Shown here in pieces: positions 41,286-50,673 of a stretch of 64,000 nucleotides of DNA; position 1 is the first letter of the stretch; the number at the start of each line of letters is the position of its first letter. The notes beneath the pieces were generated by a model that searched no databases, was not told the origin of the DNA, and saw nothing but the letters and a program-made list of their open reading frames with translations. A program made the position numbers and the translations under genes. Location: NCBI RefSeq assembly GCF_022809315.2, contig NZ_JAKZJU020000001.1, positions 1,116,001 through 1,180,000 on the forward strand, in the 5' to 3' direction. This stretch comes from Mesosutterella faecium (GTDB lineage: Bacteria > Pseudomonadota > Gammaproteobacteria > Burkholderiales > Burkholderiaceae_F).

Positions 41286-41624
41286 ATGAGATTTCAAAGC
41301 ATGGCCGGGGCGGTGGTTCTGGGCGTTTTGCCCCTGCTTTTCATTTTTCCGGACCCGGCCTGGGCCGGGGGAGTCTCGGGAGACTGCAGCTGGAACGGCA
41401 TCCCGCTTTACGGAAACGTCAAAGTGGTCAATTCATTCCCGGACATCAAGGTGAGGATCGTCTCGAGCTTTCCCGACCTGAAGGTGAAAGAGGTCGATTC
41501 GTTCCCGGACTCCTGCGGAAAGTGGCGCTTCGTCGATTCGTTTCCCGACTTCAAGGTGAAGTTCGTGGATTCCTTTCCGGACATAGAAATCAAGTACGTG
41601 GACTCCTTTCCGGGGCTGCCCTGA
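41286..41624 (+). CDS. Small periplasmic SFPD-repeat protein, 7(1) septoil-knot type
   Basis: A 112-residue exported protein. A signal peptide (1-27, ending PAWA) is followed by CSWNGIPLYG and six copies of an 11-residue unit, typically KVKFVDSFPDI, with a CGKW insertion after the third copy. Two cysteines (34 and 77) could form a disulfide. This matches my memory of the 7(1) septoil-knot family, whose chain is threaded into one of the most complex knots known in proteins. The ribosome site AAGGAGG is strong. Function is unknown. The repeats are visible as 33-base units in the DNA. Confidence 0.75.
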   Translation: MRFQSMAGAVVLGVLPLLFIFPDPAWAGGVSGDCSWNGIPLYGNVKVVNSFPDIKVRIVSSFPDLKVKEVDSFPDSCGKWRFVDSFPDFKVKFVDSFPDIEIKYVDSFPGLP

Positions 41625-44012: not shown

Positions 44013-45569
44013 TTAAAGGAGTCCGAGCTTCGAGAGCCGGCTGCGCAGTGTGTTGGGATGCATTCCGGCGCGTTCGGCGGCGCCGCCCGGGCCCGAGATT
44101 TTGCCGTAGCAGCTTTTCAGCAGGGCCGCGAAATAGGCTTTCTGCAACCCCTCCCAATCGTAGGCCGCGAGATCCGGGGCGGCCGGCTCCGCGCGCTGCG
44201 GCAGGGGCCTTGCCAGGGCGGCGGGCGCGGGGCGGGGCCCCGGGCGCTGCACGAGGTGCCGGATGATGGGGCCCTCTTCAAGCGCGGCGCGCTCCGTCGA
44301 GTTCTCAAGCTCGCGGACGTTGCCGGGCCAGCGGTAGCGGACCGCCTCCTCCAGGGCCTGGGCTGTCAGCCTGGGAATTTCGGAGAGGTGGTACTTCGCG
44401 GCGATCCGCTTTAAGAACAGCCTCGCGAGCAGCCCGATGTCCCCCGGTCGGTCCCGAAGCGGGGGGAGCTTGATCGGGAAGACGTGCAGCCGGTAATAAA
44501 GATCCGTCCGGAAAAGCCCCTTTTCAACCATTTCCTCCAGGCTTCGGTTCGTGGCCGCGATGATCCGGACGTCGACGGGAATTGAGCTCTCGCCGCCCAC
44601 CCGGGTGATGGTGCGCTCCTGCAGCACGCGCAGTAGCTTCACCTGCGCAAGCGCGGACAGCTCCTCGATTTCGTCCAGGAAAAGCGTTCCGCCTTCAGCC
44701 TGCTCGAAGTAGCCTGCGTGGCGGTTTTTAGCATCCGTGAAAGCGCCTTTTTCATAGCCGAAGAGCTCGCTTTCAATGAGCGAGGCGGGGATTGCGCCGC
44801 AGTTGATTGCGATGAAGGGGGCATTGCGCCGGGAGGACATCTGCACGAGGGTGCGCGCCGTCACCTCCTTGCCGGTGCCGGATTCGCCCTCGATCAGGAC
44901 CGTGACGTCGGTGTCGGCAATCCGGCGCATTTTCTGCGCGACCTGGTAGAGCCCGGGCGAGGCGGCAAGGAACCGCTCGAGCGGCTCGGACTTTTCCTGC
45001 CGGAGCTGCCGCCTGAGGGCCTCGTTCTCCCGGCCGATGTGGGCGGCCCAGGCGCGGGCGACCCAGGTGGACAGCGGCTGGGCGAGCGATGCGATGAGCG
45101 CCGCCTGCGACTCAAGCCAGGCTTTCTCCCTCAGGCTGTAAAAACAGATGACGCCGACATGCTGCCCGTCGAGTTCGAGGCGCTGCATGACGTAGGAGCC
45201 TATGCCGGTAATGACGTTTCGGGTCGCCCATGCCGTGACGGGGTCCTCCGAGAGCGATCTTACGAGTAGCGTCTCCGGCCGGTGCTCGTAGGAGAGTTCG
45301 CCCACGAGCCCCTCGGGGATCTTCACCTCGATGTCGAGCCTCAGGCTCTCCGTGGCGTCGGCCCGGGCGAAGAACCGGATGCTTCGGGTCTCGGAGAAAA
45401 AGGTGTTCACGAAGATGCCGCTCACCGGCAGCCCCTGCTGCTGCAGCAGCCTCACGAGCCGCCGCAGAGCCTGCAGGGGGCTGGCGAGGCTGCAGACCTC
45501 GCTCACCGACTCGTAGAGCTCACGGGGAGCCTGGCCCGGGCCCTCAAGGCCTTTCTGATGATTGTCCAT
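44013..45569 (-). CDS. Sigma-54 enhancer-binding regulator (GAF-AAA-Fis)
   Basis: A 518-residue transcription activator. A GAF-like sensor domain covers about residues 25-170, followed by a short coiled coil. The AAA+ domain has Walker A GESGTGKE (228-235), Walker B GGTLFLDE (293-300) and the sigma-54 loop, which reads GAFTDA (275-280) instead of GAFTGA. A Fis-type HTH (about 488-516) ends the protein. It is divergent from the reductase operon. Three palindromes lie just in front of its own start codon, and a -24/-12 promoter precedes the reductase. It is probably the inducer-sensing switch for that operon and may repress itself. The ligand is unknown. Confidence 0.88.
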
Positions 45570-45574
45570 TGTTA

Positions 45575-45624
45575 ACGAAATGTCGTAATTTAACGAATAT
45601 TCGTAATTTTATACGAAATATCGT
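45575..45624. promoter_or_regulatory. Three palindromic enhancer sites for the adjacent regulator
   Basis: ACGAAATGTCGT (45575-45586), ACGAATATTCGT (45593-45604, a perfect palindrome) and ACGAAATATCGT (45613-45624) share the form ACGAnnnnTCGT. They start 18 and 20 bases apart, about two helical turns, so they face the same side. They lie about 140-190 bases upstream of the predicted reductase transcription start, the classical distance for a sigma-54 enhancer, and directly in front of the regulator's start codon. Confidence 0.85.
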
Positions 45625-45739
45625 TTCAGTAGTTAGTTCAAAAAGTGTGGATTCAGTCTTTGATACGTCGAGAGAATTAGTTCTAAAAGCCCCGCCGGAC
45701 GGTGGATTACGCGCTGCGGGAGGTACTGCGTCTCAAAGC

Positions 45740-45755
45740 TGGCACGGTTTGTGCT
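45740..45755 (+). promoter_or_regulatory. Sigma-54 (-24/-12) promoter of the reductase operon
   Basis: TGGCACGGTTTGTGCT matches the consensus TGGCAC-N5-TTGCA at nearly all positions. The invariant GG (45741-45742) and GC (45753-45754) are correctly spaced. Transcription would start near 45766, 35 bases before the reductase start codon. Confidence 0.85.
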
Positions 45756-45800
45756 TTGAGTCTCTGTGAAAAAATGAAAGAGCCTTTTTTTGAGGTCAGC

Positions 45801-47330
45801 ATGAAAAAAAACATCATCCAGAAGGAGACCAGCCGCCGCAGCCTGATCAAGGCCGGCGCCGCCGTCATCTGCGCCGGGGCCGCAGCCTCGCACGCCGCCC
45901 CCGCGCCAGCGAAGGCGCGGTTTGACAAGATCTATGACGTGATCGTCGTGGGCTCGGGCTTTGCCGCCCTCGCCGCGGCGCTGCGCGCCCGCGAGCAGGG
46001 CGCTCATGTCCTGCTCATCGAAAAGATGCCGGCCTTCGGCGGCAACTCTGCAATTAACGGCGGGGCTTTTGCCGTGGCCGGCTCCCCCCTGCAGGAGAAG
46101 TCCGGCATCAAGGACTCCCCGGAGTTGATGCTCAAGGACATGATCCGCTCGGGCCGCGGTCTCTCGCACGTCGACCTTCTCAAGATGATCGTGGAGGGCA
46201 CCCGCCCCGCCTTCGACTGGGTCGTGAGCTACGGGGTGAAGTTCAAGCCCTTCGTGCAGCACTTCGGCGGGCACAGCGTCCCGCGCATCATGCAGACCGT
46301 GGAGTCCACGGGCGGCGGCATCACTCGGCCGCTTGCCGAGGCCTGCCTTAAAAAAGGCGTCGAGATGCACAGGCGCGCGATGATGCGCGACTTCATCCGC
46401 AGCGCCGACGGCCGCGTGATCGGTCTGAAGGTGCGCGAAGGCTACATCTTCCCCAAGGAGGATTCCGGGGTGGACGTCACCTACGGGGCTCGCCGCGGCG
46501 TTGTGATGGCGACCGGGGGCTTTTCACGCAACATCTGGTTCCGCAGCCAGCAGGATCCGCTGCTTGATTCCCGGCTTGACTCCACGAATCAGCCCGGGGC
46601 GACGGGCGAGGGCCTTCTCAAGATGCTCGCGATCGGCGGCGCTCCCGTCCAGCTCGACCAGATCCAGCTCGGCCCCTGGAGCTCGCCCGAGGAAAAGGGC
46701 TTCGGCCTTGTCTCCCAGTTCAACACGATCGCCGGCTTCCCGATGGGCATCATGGTGGATCCGCGCACGGGCCGCCGCTTCTGCAACGAGCTTGCCGACC
46801 GAAAGGAGCGCGCCGACAAGATCCTCACCATGATTGAAAACGGCAAGCCCGTCTACCCCATCTGCTTTACCGACACGAAGGGCGTCGCGAAGGCTCAGAC
46901 CCTCAAGAACGGCCTCAAGTACGGCGTGATCCACAAGTTCGACTCGCTTGAGGCGATTGCCCGCGGTTTCCACATGCCGGTCGAGGCTTTCGTCGCTCAG
47001 GTGAAGGAGTTCAACGGCTATGTCCGCGCGAAGGACGACAAGCAGTTCCACCGCCCGCTGCAGCTCGCGATCGTCCTGGACAAGCCCCCGTTCTACGCCG
47101 TGAAGGTCTGGCCGAAGGTCCACTACTGCATGGGAGGCGTCGGCATCAATCCGAAGGCCGAGGTGCTCGACGTGATGGGCCGTCCGATTCCCGGACTCTT
47201 CGCCGCGGGCGAGGTGACCGGCGGCGCCCACGGGGCGAGCCGCCTCGGGGGCTGCGCGATTGCAGACGGCCTGTGCTTCGGCCGCATCGCCGGACTGTCC
47301 GCGGCCAGCAGCACCCCTGTTGATCTTTAA
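45801..47330 (+). CDS. Periplasmic FAD-dependent enoate reductase (flavocytochrome c / urocanate reductase family, no haem domain)
   Basis: A 509-residue exported flavoprotein. A Tat signal (SRRSLIK, 11-17) precedes the FAD site GSGFAALAAALRA (51-63). In the fumarate-reductase fold, Arg334 in RFCNELADR fits the proton-donor arginine, His441 in HYCMGGVG and Arg481 in GGAHGASRLGG the substrate-binding residues. The histidine of the fumarate-reductase IQAHP motif is replaced (IQLGP, 288-292), so fumarate is unlikely to be the substrate. The N-terminal tetrahaem domain of Shewanella enzymes is missing; the next gene supplies it. I chose the ATG at 45801, which lies behind TGAGGT and leaves a Tat signal at the N terminus. 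A likely role is reduction of urocanate or thiourocanate as a terminal electron acceptor. Confidence 0.85.
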   Translation: MKKNIIQKETSRRSLIKAGAAVICAGAAASHAAPAPAKARFDKIYDVIVVGSGFAALAAALRAREQGAHVLLIEKMPAFGGNSAINGGAFAVAGSPLQEKSGIKDSPELMLKDMIRSGRGLSHVDLLKMIVEGTRPAFDWVVSYGVKFKPFVQHFGGHSVPRIMQTVESTGGGITRPLAEACLKKGVEMHRRAMMRDFIRSADGRVIGLKVREGYIFPKEDSGVDVTYGARRGVVMATGGFSRNIWFRSQQDPLLDSRLDSTNQPGATGEGLLKMLAIGGAPVQLDQIQLGPWSSPEEKGFGLVSQFNTIAGFPMGIMVDPRTGRRFCNELADRKERADKILTMIENGKPVYPICFTDTKGVAKAQTLKNGLKYGVIHKFDSLEAIARGFHMPVEAFVAQVKEFNGYVRAKDDKQFHRPLQLAIVLDKPPFYAVKVWPKVHYCMGGVGINPKAEVLDVMGRPIPGLFAAGEVTGGAHGASRLGGCAIADGLCFGRIAGLSAASSTPVDL

Positions 47331-47359
47331 CCCAGGCGAAGAAGAGGAAGGAGACTGAA

Positions 47360-47725
47360 ATGATGAAAAAACAGATGCTGGCCGCGATGTCTGCAGCCGT
47401 CCTCGGCGCCTTCGCCCTGAACGCCTGGGCGGCCCCTGCGGTTCCGATGGGAGCCCACCACGCGAAGATGAAGTGCGAGACCTGCCACACGAAGGACAAC
47501 GCCGTGAAGGGCAACGCCTTCGTGCCGCCTTCGGACAAGACCTGCGAGGGCTGCCACGGCAGCTACGCGGCGCTTGCGAAGAAGACCGCGGGCGGCTCCG
47601 AGCCCAACCCCCACTATTCGGCCCATTACGGCGAGTCGCTGTCTTGCAGCGCCTGCCACAGGCAGCACGAGAAACCGCAGTCCTACTGCAACAACTGCCA
47701 CGACTTCAGGCACAAGATGCCCTGA
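47360..47725 (+). CDS. Small tetrahaem cytochrome c
   Basis: A 121-residue periplasmic cytochrome. A Sec signal (1-24, ending AWA) is followed by four CxxCH haem sites: CETCH (39-43), CEGCH (62-66), CSACH (96-100) and CNNCH (110-114), with additional His residues for axial ligation. It corresponds to the haem domain that is fused to the flavoprotein in Shewanella FccA and UrdA. It lies 29 bases after the reductase gene and most likely passes electrons to it from a quinol-oxidising membrane cytochrome that is not encoded nearby. Confidence 0.92.
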   Translation: MMKKQMLAAMSAAVLGAFALNAWAAPAVPMGAHHAKMKCETCHTKDNAVKGNAFVPPSDKTCEGCHGSYAALAKKTAGGSEPNPHYSAHYGESLSCSACHRQHEKPQSYCNNCHDFRHKMP

Positions 47726-47808
47726 AACCGAACACTGGGTCGAAAATAAAACTTTTTTTCAAGGGCACCGCTTGAGCGGGCCCGACTTACCACTGGAGAG
47801 AACTAAAA

Positions 47809-49461
47809 ATGGCAAAAACTAGGATCATTGCCGCCGCCGTCGCCCTTGCCTTCGCCGGCAGCGCTTACGCCGGCGTCGTCACTCTGGACGGACACCACCT
47901 CACGATGGATCAGGCCTGGGAGGTCGCCAACGGCCAGTCCACCGTCGAGATCGCCCCGAGCGCGAGGCAGAATCTGATCCTGTCGCACAAGCTCGTGATG
48001 GAAGCCGCCGCTCAGGGCAAGCCCGTGTACGGCCTCACCACCGGCGTGGGCCTCAACAAGGACAAGAAGCTATTTGACGCGAACGGCAAGCTCACCAAGG
48101 AGGTGCTCGACGCCTCCCGCGCCTTCAACTACAACGCCTTCCGCGCGCACTCGGCCGGCATCGGCCCGATGATGCCGGAAAACCTCGCCCGCCTGTCCAT
48201 GGTGATCCGCCTGAACACCATGCTTGCGGGCCAGTCCGGCGCCCAGGTCCGCGTGGCTGACCTCTACCGCGAATTCCTCAACAAGCACATCACCCCCGAG
48301 ATCCCCTCGCGCGGCACGATCGGTGAGGCCGACATTCTGCTCGCCTCGCACGTCGGCTCCGTGATGATCGGCGAGTGGCGCGCCCGCGTCGACGGCCGCC
48401 TGATGAGCGGCGCCGAAGCCCTCAAGGCAAAGGGCATTACCCCTCTGGTTCCCGAGGGCAAGGACGCCCTCGCGGTCCTTTCGAACAGCTCGGTCGCCAT
48501 GGCCTATGCGCTTGACGGCTACAAGAAGGCCCTGCAGGTCACGAAGACGACTCCTGTTGTCTTCGGCCTTTCCCTCGAGGGGCTCAACGGCAACGTCGCC
48601 CCGTTCCTGCCTCAGACGGTCGCCGTGCGTCCGTTCCCCGGCCTCGACAAGGCGGCCGAGTCCCTGAGGCTCTCGCTCAAGGGCTCCTACCTCTGGCAGC
48701 CCGCGAAGGATCGTCCGCTGCAGGATCCGCTCTCCTACCGCACCACGGTCTACGCGCTGGCTGAAGCGAACAACGCGCTTGCCGACCTGAAGAAGGTGAT
48801 CGACGTCCAGATCAACGCGGGCGACGACAACCCCGCCACGATTCTCAATGCGAAGCAGGACTACCGCTCCGAGAGCAAGCAGGTCGCCAATTACTTCATC
48901 GACGGCAAGGAAGTGAACGGCGCGATCATTCCGAGCGCGAACTTCGAGGTCCTGCCGGTTGCGCTCGCCCTGCAGCGCGCCTCTCTCGCGGTGGCCCACC
49001 TGTCGCACAACGCCGTGCAGCGCACGATCCACCTCTCCGATGAGCACTTCACGGGCCTCACCCGGTTCCTTACCGCCCCGGGCAACAAGGGCCACGCCTT
49101 CGGCGCGATCCAGAAGGCCTTCATGGGCATGCACGTCGACACGATGGCGCTCGCCCAGCCCGTGTCGCTCTACGGCATGCCGGTCGCAGGCGACATCGAG
49201 GATACGTTCACGCAGCTGCTGCAGGCCGGACAGCGCCTGGGCCAGATTGCCGAGAACACGCGCTACGTCTACGGGCTTGAGCTGCTGCACGGCGCCCAGG
49301 CAATCGACCTTCGCCGCCAGAAGAGCGGGAACTTCGCCATGTCCTCCGACACCGCGAAGCTCTACAACGCCTTCCGCAAGGTTTCTCCCTATGTCGACCG
49401 CGACCGTCAGTTCACCGACGACATTGAAAACGCCGCGAAGCTGATCGGCAGCTGGAATTAA
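47809..49461 (+). CDS. Exported HAL/PAL-fold lyase lacking the MIO triad (ergothionase-like)
   Basis: A 550-residue member of the aromatic amino acid lyase family with a Sec signal (1-21, ending SAYA), which ordinary cytoplasmic histidine ammonia-lyase lacks. Family landmarks are Tyr74 in VYGLTTGVG, Asn226 in LSNSS, Arg311 in DPLSYR and GDDNPAT. The MIO-forming triad is gone: GASGDL is replaced by GEADI (172-176), one residue shorter. The NQED glutamate position holds Lys436 (AIQKAF). Without MIO it should not deaminate histidine. Ergothionase, an MIO-free relative that eliminates trimethylamine from ergothioneine, is the best precedent. Its product, thiourocanate, would suit the neighbouring reductase. 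Assignment of substrate is inference. Confidence 0.8.
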   Translation: MAKTRIIAAAVALAFAGSAYAGVVTLDGHHLTMDQAWEVANGQSTVEIAPSARQNLILSHKLVMEAAAQGKPVYGLTTGVGLNKDKKLFDANGKLTKEVLDASRAFNYNAFRAHSAGIGPMMPENLARLSMVIRLNTMLAGQSGAQVRVADLYREFLNKHITPEIPSRGTIGEADILLASHVGSVMIGEWRARVDGRLMSGAEALKAKGITPLVPEGKDALAVLSNSSVAMAYALDGYKKALQVTKTTPVVFGLSLEGLNGNVAPFLPQTVAVRPFPGLDKAAESLRLSLKGSYLWQPAKDRPLQDPLSYRTTVYALAEANNALADLKKVIDVQINAGDDNPATILNAKQDYRSESKQVANYFIDGKEVNGAIIPSANFEVLPVALALQRASLAVAHLSHNAVQRTIHLSDEHFTGLTRFLTAPGNKGHAFGAIQKAFMGMHVDTMALAQPVSLYGMPVAGDIEDTFTQLLQAGQRLGQIAENTRYVYGLELLHGAQAIDLRRQKSGNFAMSSDTAKLYNAFRKVSPYVDRDRQFTDDIENAAKLIGSWN

Positions 49462-49483
49462 CGCTTTTCTCTCTCCGGACAGG

Positions 49484-49517
49484 GCGGCCCGGCGCCTTTT
49501 TGCGGGCGCCGGGCCGC
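49484..49517 (+). terminator. Strong 13-bp hairpin between lyase and porin genes
   Basis: GCGGCCCGGCGCC (49484-49496) pairs perfectly with GGCGCCGGGCCGC (49505-49517) around TTTTTGCG. There is no T tract after it, so it may be a processing or stabilising structure that sets different levels of lyase and porin, and not a full terminator. Confidence 0.55.
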
Positions 49518-49551
49518 ACCTGTCTCTCTCTGCTATTCAAAGGAAAAAACC

Positions 49552-50673
49552 ATGAATTCCAACAAGATTGCTGCGGCGCTCGCCGCCGCGGCCCTGTCCG
49601 GGGCGGCCGCAGCCGCCCCCTCGGTCACGATGTACGGGGTCGTTGACACGGGCCTGCAGTACACCCACGTCTCAAACCGGGGCGTCGACACGTTCGAGAT
49701 GAATTCCGGCAACTATGCGGGCTCGCGCTGGGGCGTGAAAGGCGAGGAGAAAATCGGCTCCTCCAGCGTGGGCTTCATTCTGGAGTCGGGCTTCGCAAGC
49801 GATACGGGCGCGCAGGGCAAAAGCGGCAGCATCTTCAACCGCGAGTCCCAGATCTATGTGAAGGGCTCCTGGGGCCGGATCGGCGCGGGCCGGGTCGGGG
49901 CCTTCACCTCGGGCTCTTCGTCCCTTTCCCGCTACTGGGACTTTGAGCCCTTCGAGACCGGGTACTACGACGCGGGCGTGCAGGGCACGCAGGTGAACGT
50001 CTGGAGGCTCAACAGCAACACCCTCTACTACGTCTCCCCGAAGATGAACGGCTTTGAGTTCGGCGGCCAGTATTCGTTCACGGGCAGCACGTCCGACAAA
50101 GAGACGAACGGGATGGCCCGCGACAGCCACTTCGGGAACATCTACGCGCGCTGGGACGGAAAGAATGCGCGGGTGATCGCCGGGGTTGAGGCCGACTTCA
50201 TCGGCCACGACTACCGGGACACCGACCCGAACAAGACGAGGTGGTCGGCGAAGCTTGCCGGCGCCTGGACCCCGAACGCGGGCCCGGTGACGCTGTTTGC
50301 GGGCTACAACTATTACAAGAACCAGAACCGCTTCACCGACTCGACCTGGGACGACGACTACAAGGTGGTCTATGACGGCAGCGGCCGCGGGCTCGAGGGA
50401 CATGCCTTCTTCCTGGGCGGCCGCTACAGCGTTGGAGCCGCGAGCTTTCTCGGGCAGTTCCAGTTCCTCACGGGCAAGAACAAGGGCGCCGTGAAGGGCG
50501 ACGAGGACGACTACAAGCGCTACGTGGGGTCGCTCGGCGTGCACTACTACTTCAGCAAGCGCACGATGGGCTACGGCGTCGTCTCCTACGCGAAGGGCAC
50601 GGGGCTGCTTGACACCGACACGACCGAAACGAACCGGGTCGTGACGACCGTGGGCGTCACGCACTGGTTCTGA
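49552..50673 (+). CDS. Gram-negative general porin (Burkholderiales type)
   Basis: A 373-residue outer-membrane porin. A signal peptide (about 1-22, AAAAAPS) is followed by SVTMYGVVDTGLQYTHVS, SRWGVKGEEKIGSSSVGFILESGF and a C-terminal strand ending VTHWF, where the terminal Phe is the BAM recognition signal. This is the porin_4/OmpC-like family of trimeric 16-strand barrels. It is the last gene of the reductase-cytochrome-lyase cluster, 90 bases after the lyase, and could admit the substrate to the periplasm. Confidence 0.9.
   Translation: MNSNKIAAALAAAALSGAAAAAPSVTMYGVVDTGLQYTHVSNRGVDTFEMNSGNYAGSRWGVKGEEKIGSSSVGFILESGFASDTGAQGKSGSIFNRESQIYVKGSWGRIGAGRVGAFTSGSSSLSRYWDFEPFETGYYDAGVQGTQVNVWRLNSNTLYYVSPKMNGFEFGGQYSFTGSTSDKETNGMARDSHFGNIYARWDGKNARVIAGVEADFIGHDYRDTDPNKTRWSAKLAGAWTPNAGPVTLFAGYNYYKNQNRFTDSTWDDDYKVVYDGSGRGLEGHAFFLGGRYSVGAASFLGQFQFLTGKNKGAVKGDEDDYKRYVGSLGVHYYFSKRTMGYGVVSYAKGTGLLDTDTTETNRVVTTVGVTHWF

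Follow-up and report, generated by a model that had tools for sequence, protein, structure and literature searches.

A predicted all-periplasmic ergothioneine-respiration module in Mesosutterella faecium

Introduction

Ergothioneine is a mushroom-derived antioxidant. We consider here five adjacent genes, at positions 44013-50673 of a 64-kb stretch of contig NZ_JAKZJU020000001.1 of Mesosutterella faecium (the whole analysed stretch is called the window), which probably form an inducible, wholly periplasmic module for the respiration of ergothioneine, as judged from sequence. Several elements of such a pathway are already known, namely ergothionase, thiourocanate hydratase clusters, urocanate reductase and the cross-feeding of thiourocanate between two species. 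Clostridium symbiosum and Bacteroides xylanisolvens split the steps of ergothioneine use between them (Zhou et al. 2025, via PMC13405746), and, through such cross-feeding, thiourocanic acid sustains both the growth of B. xylanisolvens and its ATP synthesis (PMC13405746, 2026). The module would share with this partnership the conversion of ergothioneine to thiourocanate and the anaerobic growth and ATP synthesis that thiourocanate supports, and would differ in that both steps are encoded together and exported in one cell. A BLAST survey concluded that only a few bacterial genera possess ergothionase, with the warning that it could miss divergent homologues (PMC13405746); the exported lyases described below would, if our reading is true, be such homologues.

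On the reductase side, a similar arrangement is described for Geobacter, in which the periplasmic flavin reductase Mrd, a methacrylate reductase, and the tetraheme cytochrome Mcc are encoded in one operon (PMC4427408). The window module has in common with Mrd/Mcc a separate reductase and tetraheme cytochrome, specified by one operon and carrying signal peptides of unlike types, and differs in having a lyase that could make the enoate, for which the excerpt of PMC4427408 mentions no counterpart. An earlier note, made from the letters of this DNA, had put forward the inducible, all-periplasmic combination of lyase and reductase as one not known to be described. Among the titles and abstract openings listed from an open-licence library, which lacks key subscription papers, none described an exported ergothionase encoded alongside an enoate reductase and a cytochrome of its own and controlled by sigma-54, and the novelty of the one-cell unit is provisional; growth supported by thiourocanate, by contrast, is known from cross-feeding (PMC13405746).

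The locus and the proposed scheme

The features of the module are as follows.

44013..45569, minus strand: sigma-54-dependent transcriptional activator (PF00158, E 2.1e-70), divergent from the operon
45575-45586, 45593-45604 and 45613-45624, no strand assigned: three near-palindromes resembling ACGAAATNTCGT, possible activator sites (pattern scan)
45740..45755, plus strand: predicted -24/-12 sigma-54 promoter, TGGCACGGTTTGTGCT (pattern listing 45739-45755, 2 mismatches)
45801..47330, plus strand: flavin adenine dinucleotide (FAD) enoate reductase without heme, UrdA/Fcc family (PF00890; TIGR01813, 480.4 bits), pocket signature IQLGPWSSP...SQFNT
47360..47725, plus strand: tetraheme cytochrome c (PF14537, Cytochrom_c3_2; four CXXCH)
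47809..49461, plus strand: lyase of the histidine ammonia-lyase (HAL) fold, free of the 4-methylidene-imidazole-5-one (MIO) group, predicted ergothionase (PF00221, E 3.5e-115)
49552..50673, plus strand: Gram-negative porin (PF13609, Porin_4, E 6.6e-32)

The open reading frames (ORFs), Pfam and NCBIfam bear out the five genes in the places and the order given by the earlier note. The longest reductase ORF begins at a GTG at 45702; the ATG at 45801 is taken as the usable start, since the promoter is upstream of it. Read by eye, the reductase then begins with a signal of the twin-arginine translocation (TAT) type, SRRSLIKAG, and the lyase, cytochrome and porin with Sec-type signals, in keeping with the export proposed for both lyase and reductase. 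Elsewhere in the window (41286-41624) there is a small exported-looking ORF with repeated VDSFPD-like units.

In the scheme that we propose, ergothioneine would enter the periplasm, perhaps via the porin, where the exported MIO-free lyase would convert it to thiourocanate and trimethylamine. The TAT-exported flavin reductase would then reduce the double bond of thiourocanate to give 2-thioimidazole propionate, using electrons from the tetraheme cytochrome, which would be refilled from quinol by a quinol dehydrogenase of the NapC/NirT type; the sigma-54 activator would turn the operon on. Gene content, residue conservation, co-occurrence and promoter conservation are taken from sequence, and we infer the substrate, the electron path, the inducer and the role of the porin. 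The core of the earlier proposal, that lyase and enoate reductase make up an inducible respiratory unit releasing trimethylamine, agrees with the active-site residues, the phylogeny, the neighbourhood in 78 loci and the context of hydratase genes, as set out below.

The lyase

The best match to the lyase in the PDB is the ergothionase of Treponema denticola (6s7j; 281.1 bits, E 1.4e-82), ahead of the best HAL (172.9 bits, E 8.8e-50), and its score on the hutH family of NCBIfam (265) is below the cut-off of 539.15. The Ala-Ser-Gly triad from which MIO would arise is replaced by EAD (within GEADI), and by EGD in the ergothionase. Thirteen sites were surveyed in an alignment with stretches of the PDB matches (ergothionase and HAL), and at 11 of them the window lyase is identical to T. 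denticola ergothionase. Both have Leu at the position of HAL Tyr280, and Lys436 of the window lyase is Lys in the ergothionase and Val in HAL, whereas Tyr, His, Gln, Arg, Phe and Glu sites are common to all three. The description of the gene product as a MIO-less lyase holds, its assignment to the ergothionase type is supported, and release of trimethylamine from ergothioneine is its predicted activity. The known enzyme differs in its N-terminus: residue 4 of the T. denticola construct, which shows no signal peptide, aligns to window residue 25, and the window lyase has both a signal-like N-terminus and a place in a reductase operon. Residues 1-550 are 100% identical to the lyase of Mesosutterella porci (locus L003).

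A genome collection was scanned with the lyase alignment, and the best 80 of 297 candidate stretches were gathered into 78 loci, a sample outside which more distant relatives fall. The set of Tyr, His, Gln, Arg, Phe and Glu is complete in 80 of the 81 lyase rows obtained, the other row having Thr for His. Positions 435-436 vary: Gln-Lys in 62 rows, Glu-Lys in nine, Glu-Asp in six, His-Val in three and Gln-Asn in one. Where the source names these homologues, it calls them histidine, HAL/PAL/TAL-family or aromatic amino acid lyases. Gut members include Sutterella wadsworthensis, Parasutterella and Turicimonas. The His-Val rows are Enterococcus lyases (L047, L051 and L056), close MIO-free relatives that have no evident signal peptide and no reductase in their loci, one of them (L047) standing beside a coenzyme A-transferase; they are likely to have a different substrate. 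An apparent lyase-cytochrome fusion (P0076) was rejected: its cytochrome is cut after two heme motifs and runs into the lyase, and it is treated as a chimeric or damaged gene. A class-wide search with a Shewanella lyase (L071) matched two of 369 genomes, the host and one other (L118), in which no reductase- or cytochrome-like ORF was seen by eye over 17 kb, no similarity search having been made.

HAL takes the outermost place in a tree of 53 lyase rows; the next lineage to separate is T. denticola ergothionase, whose branch is long (1.59), and lysine-type rows surround those with Asp or Gln in place of the lysine. Lysine is therefore probably the ancestral state.

The reductase and its cytochrome

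The reductase scores well above the TIGR01813 flavocytochrome c cut-off of 285.45. It contains no CXXCH motif, against four in the cytochrome, so that the earlier description of an enoate reductase without heme and a separate tetraheme cytochrome is upheld. Its best PDB match is urocanate reductase (6t85, Shewanella UrdA; E 5.1e-77), with which it shares the enoate reductase family and the catalytic Arg/His/Arg, as equivalents of UrdA Arg411, His520 and Arg560 (residue roles from PMC7921117). It differs from UrdA at four places in the pocket: Glu177 is Ala, Phe243 is Gln, Tyr373 is Gly and Asp388 is Gln. In urocanate reductases Tyr373 and Asp388 (or Asn or Gln at the latter position) are expected close to the imidazole, so that of these two sites only 388 carries one of the expected residues. 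The Gln at 388 is a natural substitution named for gut urocanate reductases (PMC7921117); the Gly at 373 could make room for the thione sulfur. No N-terminal flavin mononucleotide (FMN) domain was found by Pfam. The equivalent of the fumarate-binding His365 is Gly, and the fused heme domain is absent, the hemes residing on the separate protein. As the best PDB match of the cytochrome is to residues 4-88 of 1qo8, the heme domain of flavocytochrome c3 (E 1.5e-11), the two proteins together look like a split flavocytochrome.

Conservation of the neighbourhood

A reductase lies no more than 5 kb from 52 of the lysine-type lyases, which occupy 51 loci (L058 has two) and by record title comprise 27 from Shewanella, ten from Ferrimonas and relatives, eight from Enterobacterales and seven from Sutterellaceae. 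All 52 have a tetraheme cytochrome nearby, and all 52 rows have Ala, Gln, Gly and Gln at UrdA positions 177, 243, 373 and 388. Equivalents of Arg411, His520 and Arg560 occur in every one of the 59 lyase-reductase rows (57 different reductases; L008 and L058 are counted twice). An activator-like gene scoring above 100 bits is in the locus for 49 of the 52. Among the three exceptions, L033 and L059 start at a contig end close to the reductase, and the L028 gene is split in two. Distances between lyases and between reductases are correlated over the 59 pairs (Mantel r 0.87, none of 2000 permutations as high), shared species history contributing to this figure.

The order of the genes varies with lineage. 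In Sutterellaceae the activator is divergent from reductase-cytochrome-lyase, in some cases with a porin like that of the window; in Shewanella it is divergent from reductase-lyase-cytochrome; and in Ferrimonas and Paraferrimonas, as in one record that carries the label Marinobacter, it is divergent from lyase-reductase-cytochrome. Eight Enterobacterales loci have lyase-reductase-cytochrome and a seven-heme protein, and their activator-like gene is weakly similar; the extra protein (L009, L010, L011, L012, L014, L020, L028 and L030) is of about 540-560 residues with seven CXXCH motifs. An old report of an E. coli ergothionase is mentioned in PMC13405746. A megablast search of 20,395 E. coli records with the lyase and most of the reductase of Escherichia sp. 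L010 gave no match at the sensitivity of that method, and none was found in plasmids with the lyase alone. A close relative of the reductase (P0206, from a protein search) is named from Escherichia albertii.

Regulation and electron supply

It had been proposed that the operon is under a sigma-54 switch with enhancer sites. The loose promoter pattern has 49 matches in the window where 70.9 are expected; there being no excess, the match means little alone, and the weight comes from comparison between loci. Gaps were scanned on the coding strand from a divergent activator (above 250 bits) to the first gene of the module. Of the 41 that were suitable, none comes from Enterobacterales, and some, with lengths reaching 2.3 kb, contain a further gene. 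In 40 of these homologous gaps there is a GG-N10-GC element that agrees with the consensus at nine or more of 11 positions; L058 is the exception. When each gap was shuffled 200 times by mononucleotide, between 0 and 17 of the shuffles attained the observed score, in most gaps 0 to 4. The host genome has one RpoN match (PF04552). Exact matches to ACGAAATNTCGT in the 64 kb number two, both in the gap between activator and reductase, but with up to two mismatches there are 15 in the window against a shuffle mean of 9.3, a count that ten of 100 shuffles equalled or exceeded and that is within chance. With activator, promoter and RpoN all present, the operon is presumably sigma-54-controlled, and induction by the substrate is predicted.

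The one NapC/NirT-family protein matched in the host genome could pass electrons from quinol to the cytochrome. The matching sequence (L110, C1:818325-818864) has three CXXCH motifs, and its first heme position has CX3CH spacing (CGTFCH).

A second fate for thiourocanate

The context is different in 11 loci out of 78 (Burkholderia, Caballeronia, Serratia, Paracoccus, Photobacterium and Comamonas): there a lysine-type lyase is accompanied by a desulfurase relative and a relative of urocanase-like hydratases, and no reductase is present. Hydantoinase and carbamoylase accompany them in ten, the exception being L078. Overall, 57 loci have the reductase without the hydratase, 11 the hydratase without the reductase, none both and ten neither. 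The one hydratase-type locus scanned against NCBIfam, from Serratia grimesii (L069), has neighbours above the equivalog cut-offs for thiourocanate hydratase (1014.5 against 930), thiohydantoin desulfurase (597.7 against 440) and the hydantoin-5-propionate amidohydrolase ErtD (666.5 against 600). This Ert cluster shares with the window module a lysine-type lyase of the wider clade with a signal-like N-terminus, and differs in its hydratase, desulfurase and hydantoinase neighbours and in having no reductase in the locus. Such N-termini were seen by eye in the hydratase-type lyases of L068, L069, L070, L074 and L078; in Burkholderia the lyase frame is open far upstream and its start ambiguous. 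No urocanase match was found in the host genome, so the window module is without an Ert-type hydratase. Most simply, the lyases of both contexts would be of one kind and make thiourocanate, which would then be either hydrated and degraded or else reduced.

Paralogues without the lysine

The host and other Sutterellaceae have a second exported lyase, in which DAD and Glu-Asp replace EAD and Gln-Lys. In the host (L001, C1:2034079-2035557) and in M. porci (L057) this second MIO-free lyase is divergent from a UrdA-type reductase, which is lengthened at its N-terminus by some 130 residues (FMN-type by eye) and has a porin nearby. The reductase of the L057 type is a canonical UrdA, with Glu177, Phe243, Tyr373, Asp388, Arg390 and Phe391, and the pair is a candidate for making imidazole propionate from hercynine or histidine. 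The canonical type is beside six of the seven lysine-less lyases that have a reductase within 5 kb, one of the six being the Shewanella L071 lyase, which has Asn for Lys and its reductase at 4.1 kb with other genes between. The seventh (L008_812) was scored against a neighbouring lysine-type module, its own reductase being cut by the end of the locus; a copy with the same N-terminus (L099) has the UrdA residues as far as readable.

In the tree, the Asp type forms a firm clade of its own (100/100) and groups with the Sutterellaceae lysine type (98/94). As the latter is weak as a clade (86/69), the Asp type may be either sister to it or nested in it. The lyases of L003 and L057 are 52% identical and their reductases 32%, whereas L003 and Shewanella sp. 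ANA-3 (L027) are 56% identical for both; therefore the reductase partner has probably been exchanged. A third type occurs in two Sutterellaceae loci (L111 and L112), with an AND motif and Gln at 436, the order reductase-cytochrome-lyase, and Gly at 373 and Phe at 388 in the reductase. These loci (L111:5655-10421 and L112:5964-11500) have a TetR-like gene nearby (by eye); there is a porin-like gene in L111 and two Gln-type lyases in tandem in L112. The L071 lyase and the Gln type group together (88/80) and may share a single loss of the lysine, so that independent residue switches would number one to three, each with a changed reductase pocket.

There is about an even chance that the window module belongs to a wider class of eliminate-then-respire units of the periplasm, each pairing an exported MIO-free HAL-fold lyase with an enoate reductase of corresponding specificity. 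That estimate covers the following parts jointly: a lysine-type lyase with a Gly/Gln reductase would act on ergothioneine and thiourocanate; an Asp-type lyase with canonical UrdA would take hercynine (or histidine) through urocanate to imidazole propionate outside the cytoplasm; a Gln-type lyase with a Gly/Phe reductase (L111 and L112) would use an aryl or indole betaine; and the lyase residue and reductase pocket would form a readable substrate code.

Weighing the alternatives

By the same two steps, the module could act on a different betaine of histidine (hercynine, S-methyl-ergothioneine or ergothioneine sulfonate), with the matching urocanate going to the reductase. This is unlikely, though the Gln at UrdA 388, given its occurrence in gut urocanate reductases (PMC7921117), is in its favour, as are the existence in NCBIfam of a separate S-methyl thiourocanate hydratase family and the fact that the Serratia hydratase also exceeds the ordinary urocanate hydratase cut-off (686.8 against 375). 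That same hydratase falls below the S-methyl cut-off (738.3 against 880) while exceeding that for thiourocanate, and canonical urocanate reductase accompanies lysine-less lyases and never the 52 lysine-type ones. A periplasmic HAL feeding a urocanate reductase, that is, histidine respiration, would account for the HAL fold and for UrdA being nearest to the reductase in the PDB. It is very improbable given the missing MIO triad, Leu for HAL Tyr280, Lys for the HAL Val, the score beneath the hutH cut-off and a reductase without the Tyr373, Asp388 and Arg390 that the L057 UrdA type keeps.

The genes might also be mere neighbours, the reductase respiring an unrelated enoate such as fumarate or cinnamate and the lyase scavenging. 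With 56 PF00890 matches in the 2.6-Mb host genome (some of them fragments; about 50 reductases), chance adjacency is not improbable in itself. We nevertheless give this explanation only a small chance, somewhat below that of another betaine, because the pairing recurs, with the gene order varying, in 52 rows from Sutterellaceae, Shewanella, Ferrimonas relatives and Enterobacterales, because lyase and reductase distances correlate even if shared history adds to this, and because the fumarate-binding His is replaced.

Several points weigh against ergothioneine respiration itself, besides the double assignment of the Serratia hydratase. The 52 rows are not independent, and a pocket shared by one clade of reductases may reflect descent only; few of the residue switches arose independently. 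At two of the 13 surveyed sites the window lyase departs from the T. denticola enzyme (EAD for EGD, and Asn226 for Cys), and the lysine, which is reported to be among the catalytic residues of that enzyme, serves here as a sequence marker only. The long branch and unlike composition of that ergothionase make its placement near the root unsure, and the tree retains the alignment columns of the trait itself. The lyase family is patchy: of 67 genomes from the family of the host, 14 have a match, in one case to ordinary HAL only. Nor is the porin conserved, one like that of the window occurring, among reductase-linked lysine-type loci, only in some Sutterellaceae (other porin families were not searched), and it is no more than a possible entry for ergothioneine.

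Implications

Animals keep a selective transporter for ergothioneine (PMC7653990). In colitic octn1-/- mice, Sutterella was higher than in other groups; OCTN1 carries ergothioneine and other substrates, and other taxa also changed in these mice (PMC11630256), so the observation is circumstantial and is not used as evidence. Imidazole propionate has been linked to type 2 diabetes (PMC7921117), and the sister modules, if rightly read, would put its formation downstream of a periplasmic lyase. The pairing of lyase and reductase residues would make substrates predictable. If the ergothioneine reading of the window module is true, gut Sutterellaceae, Shewanella and some Enterobacterales would breathe a dietary antioxidant, releasing trimethylamine.

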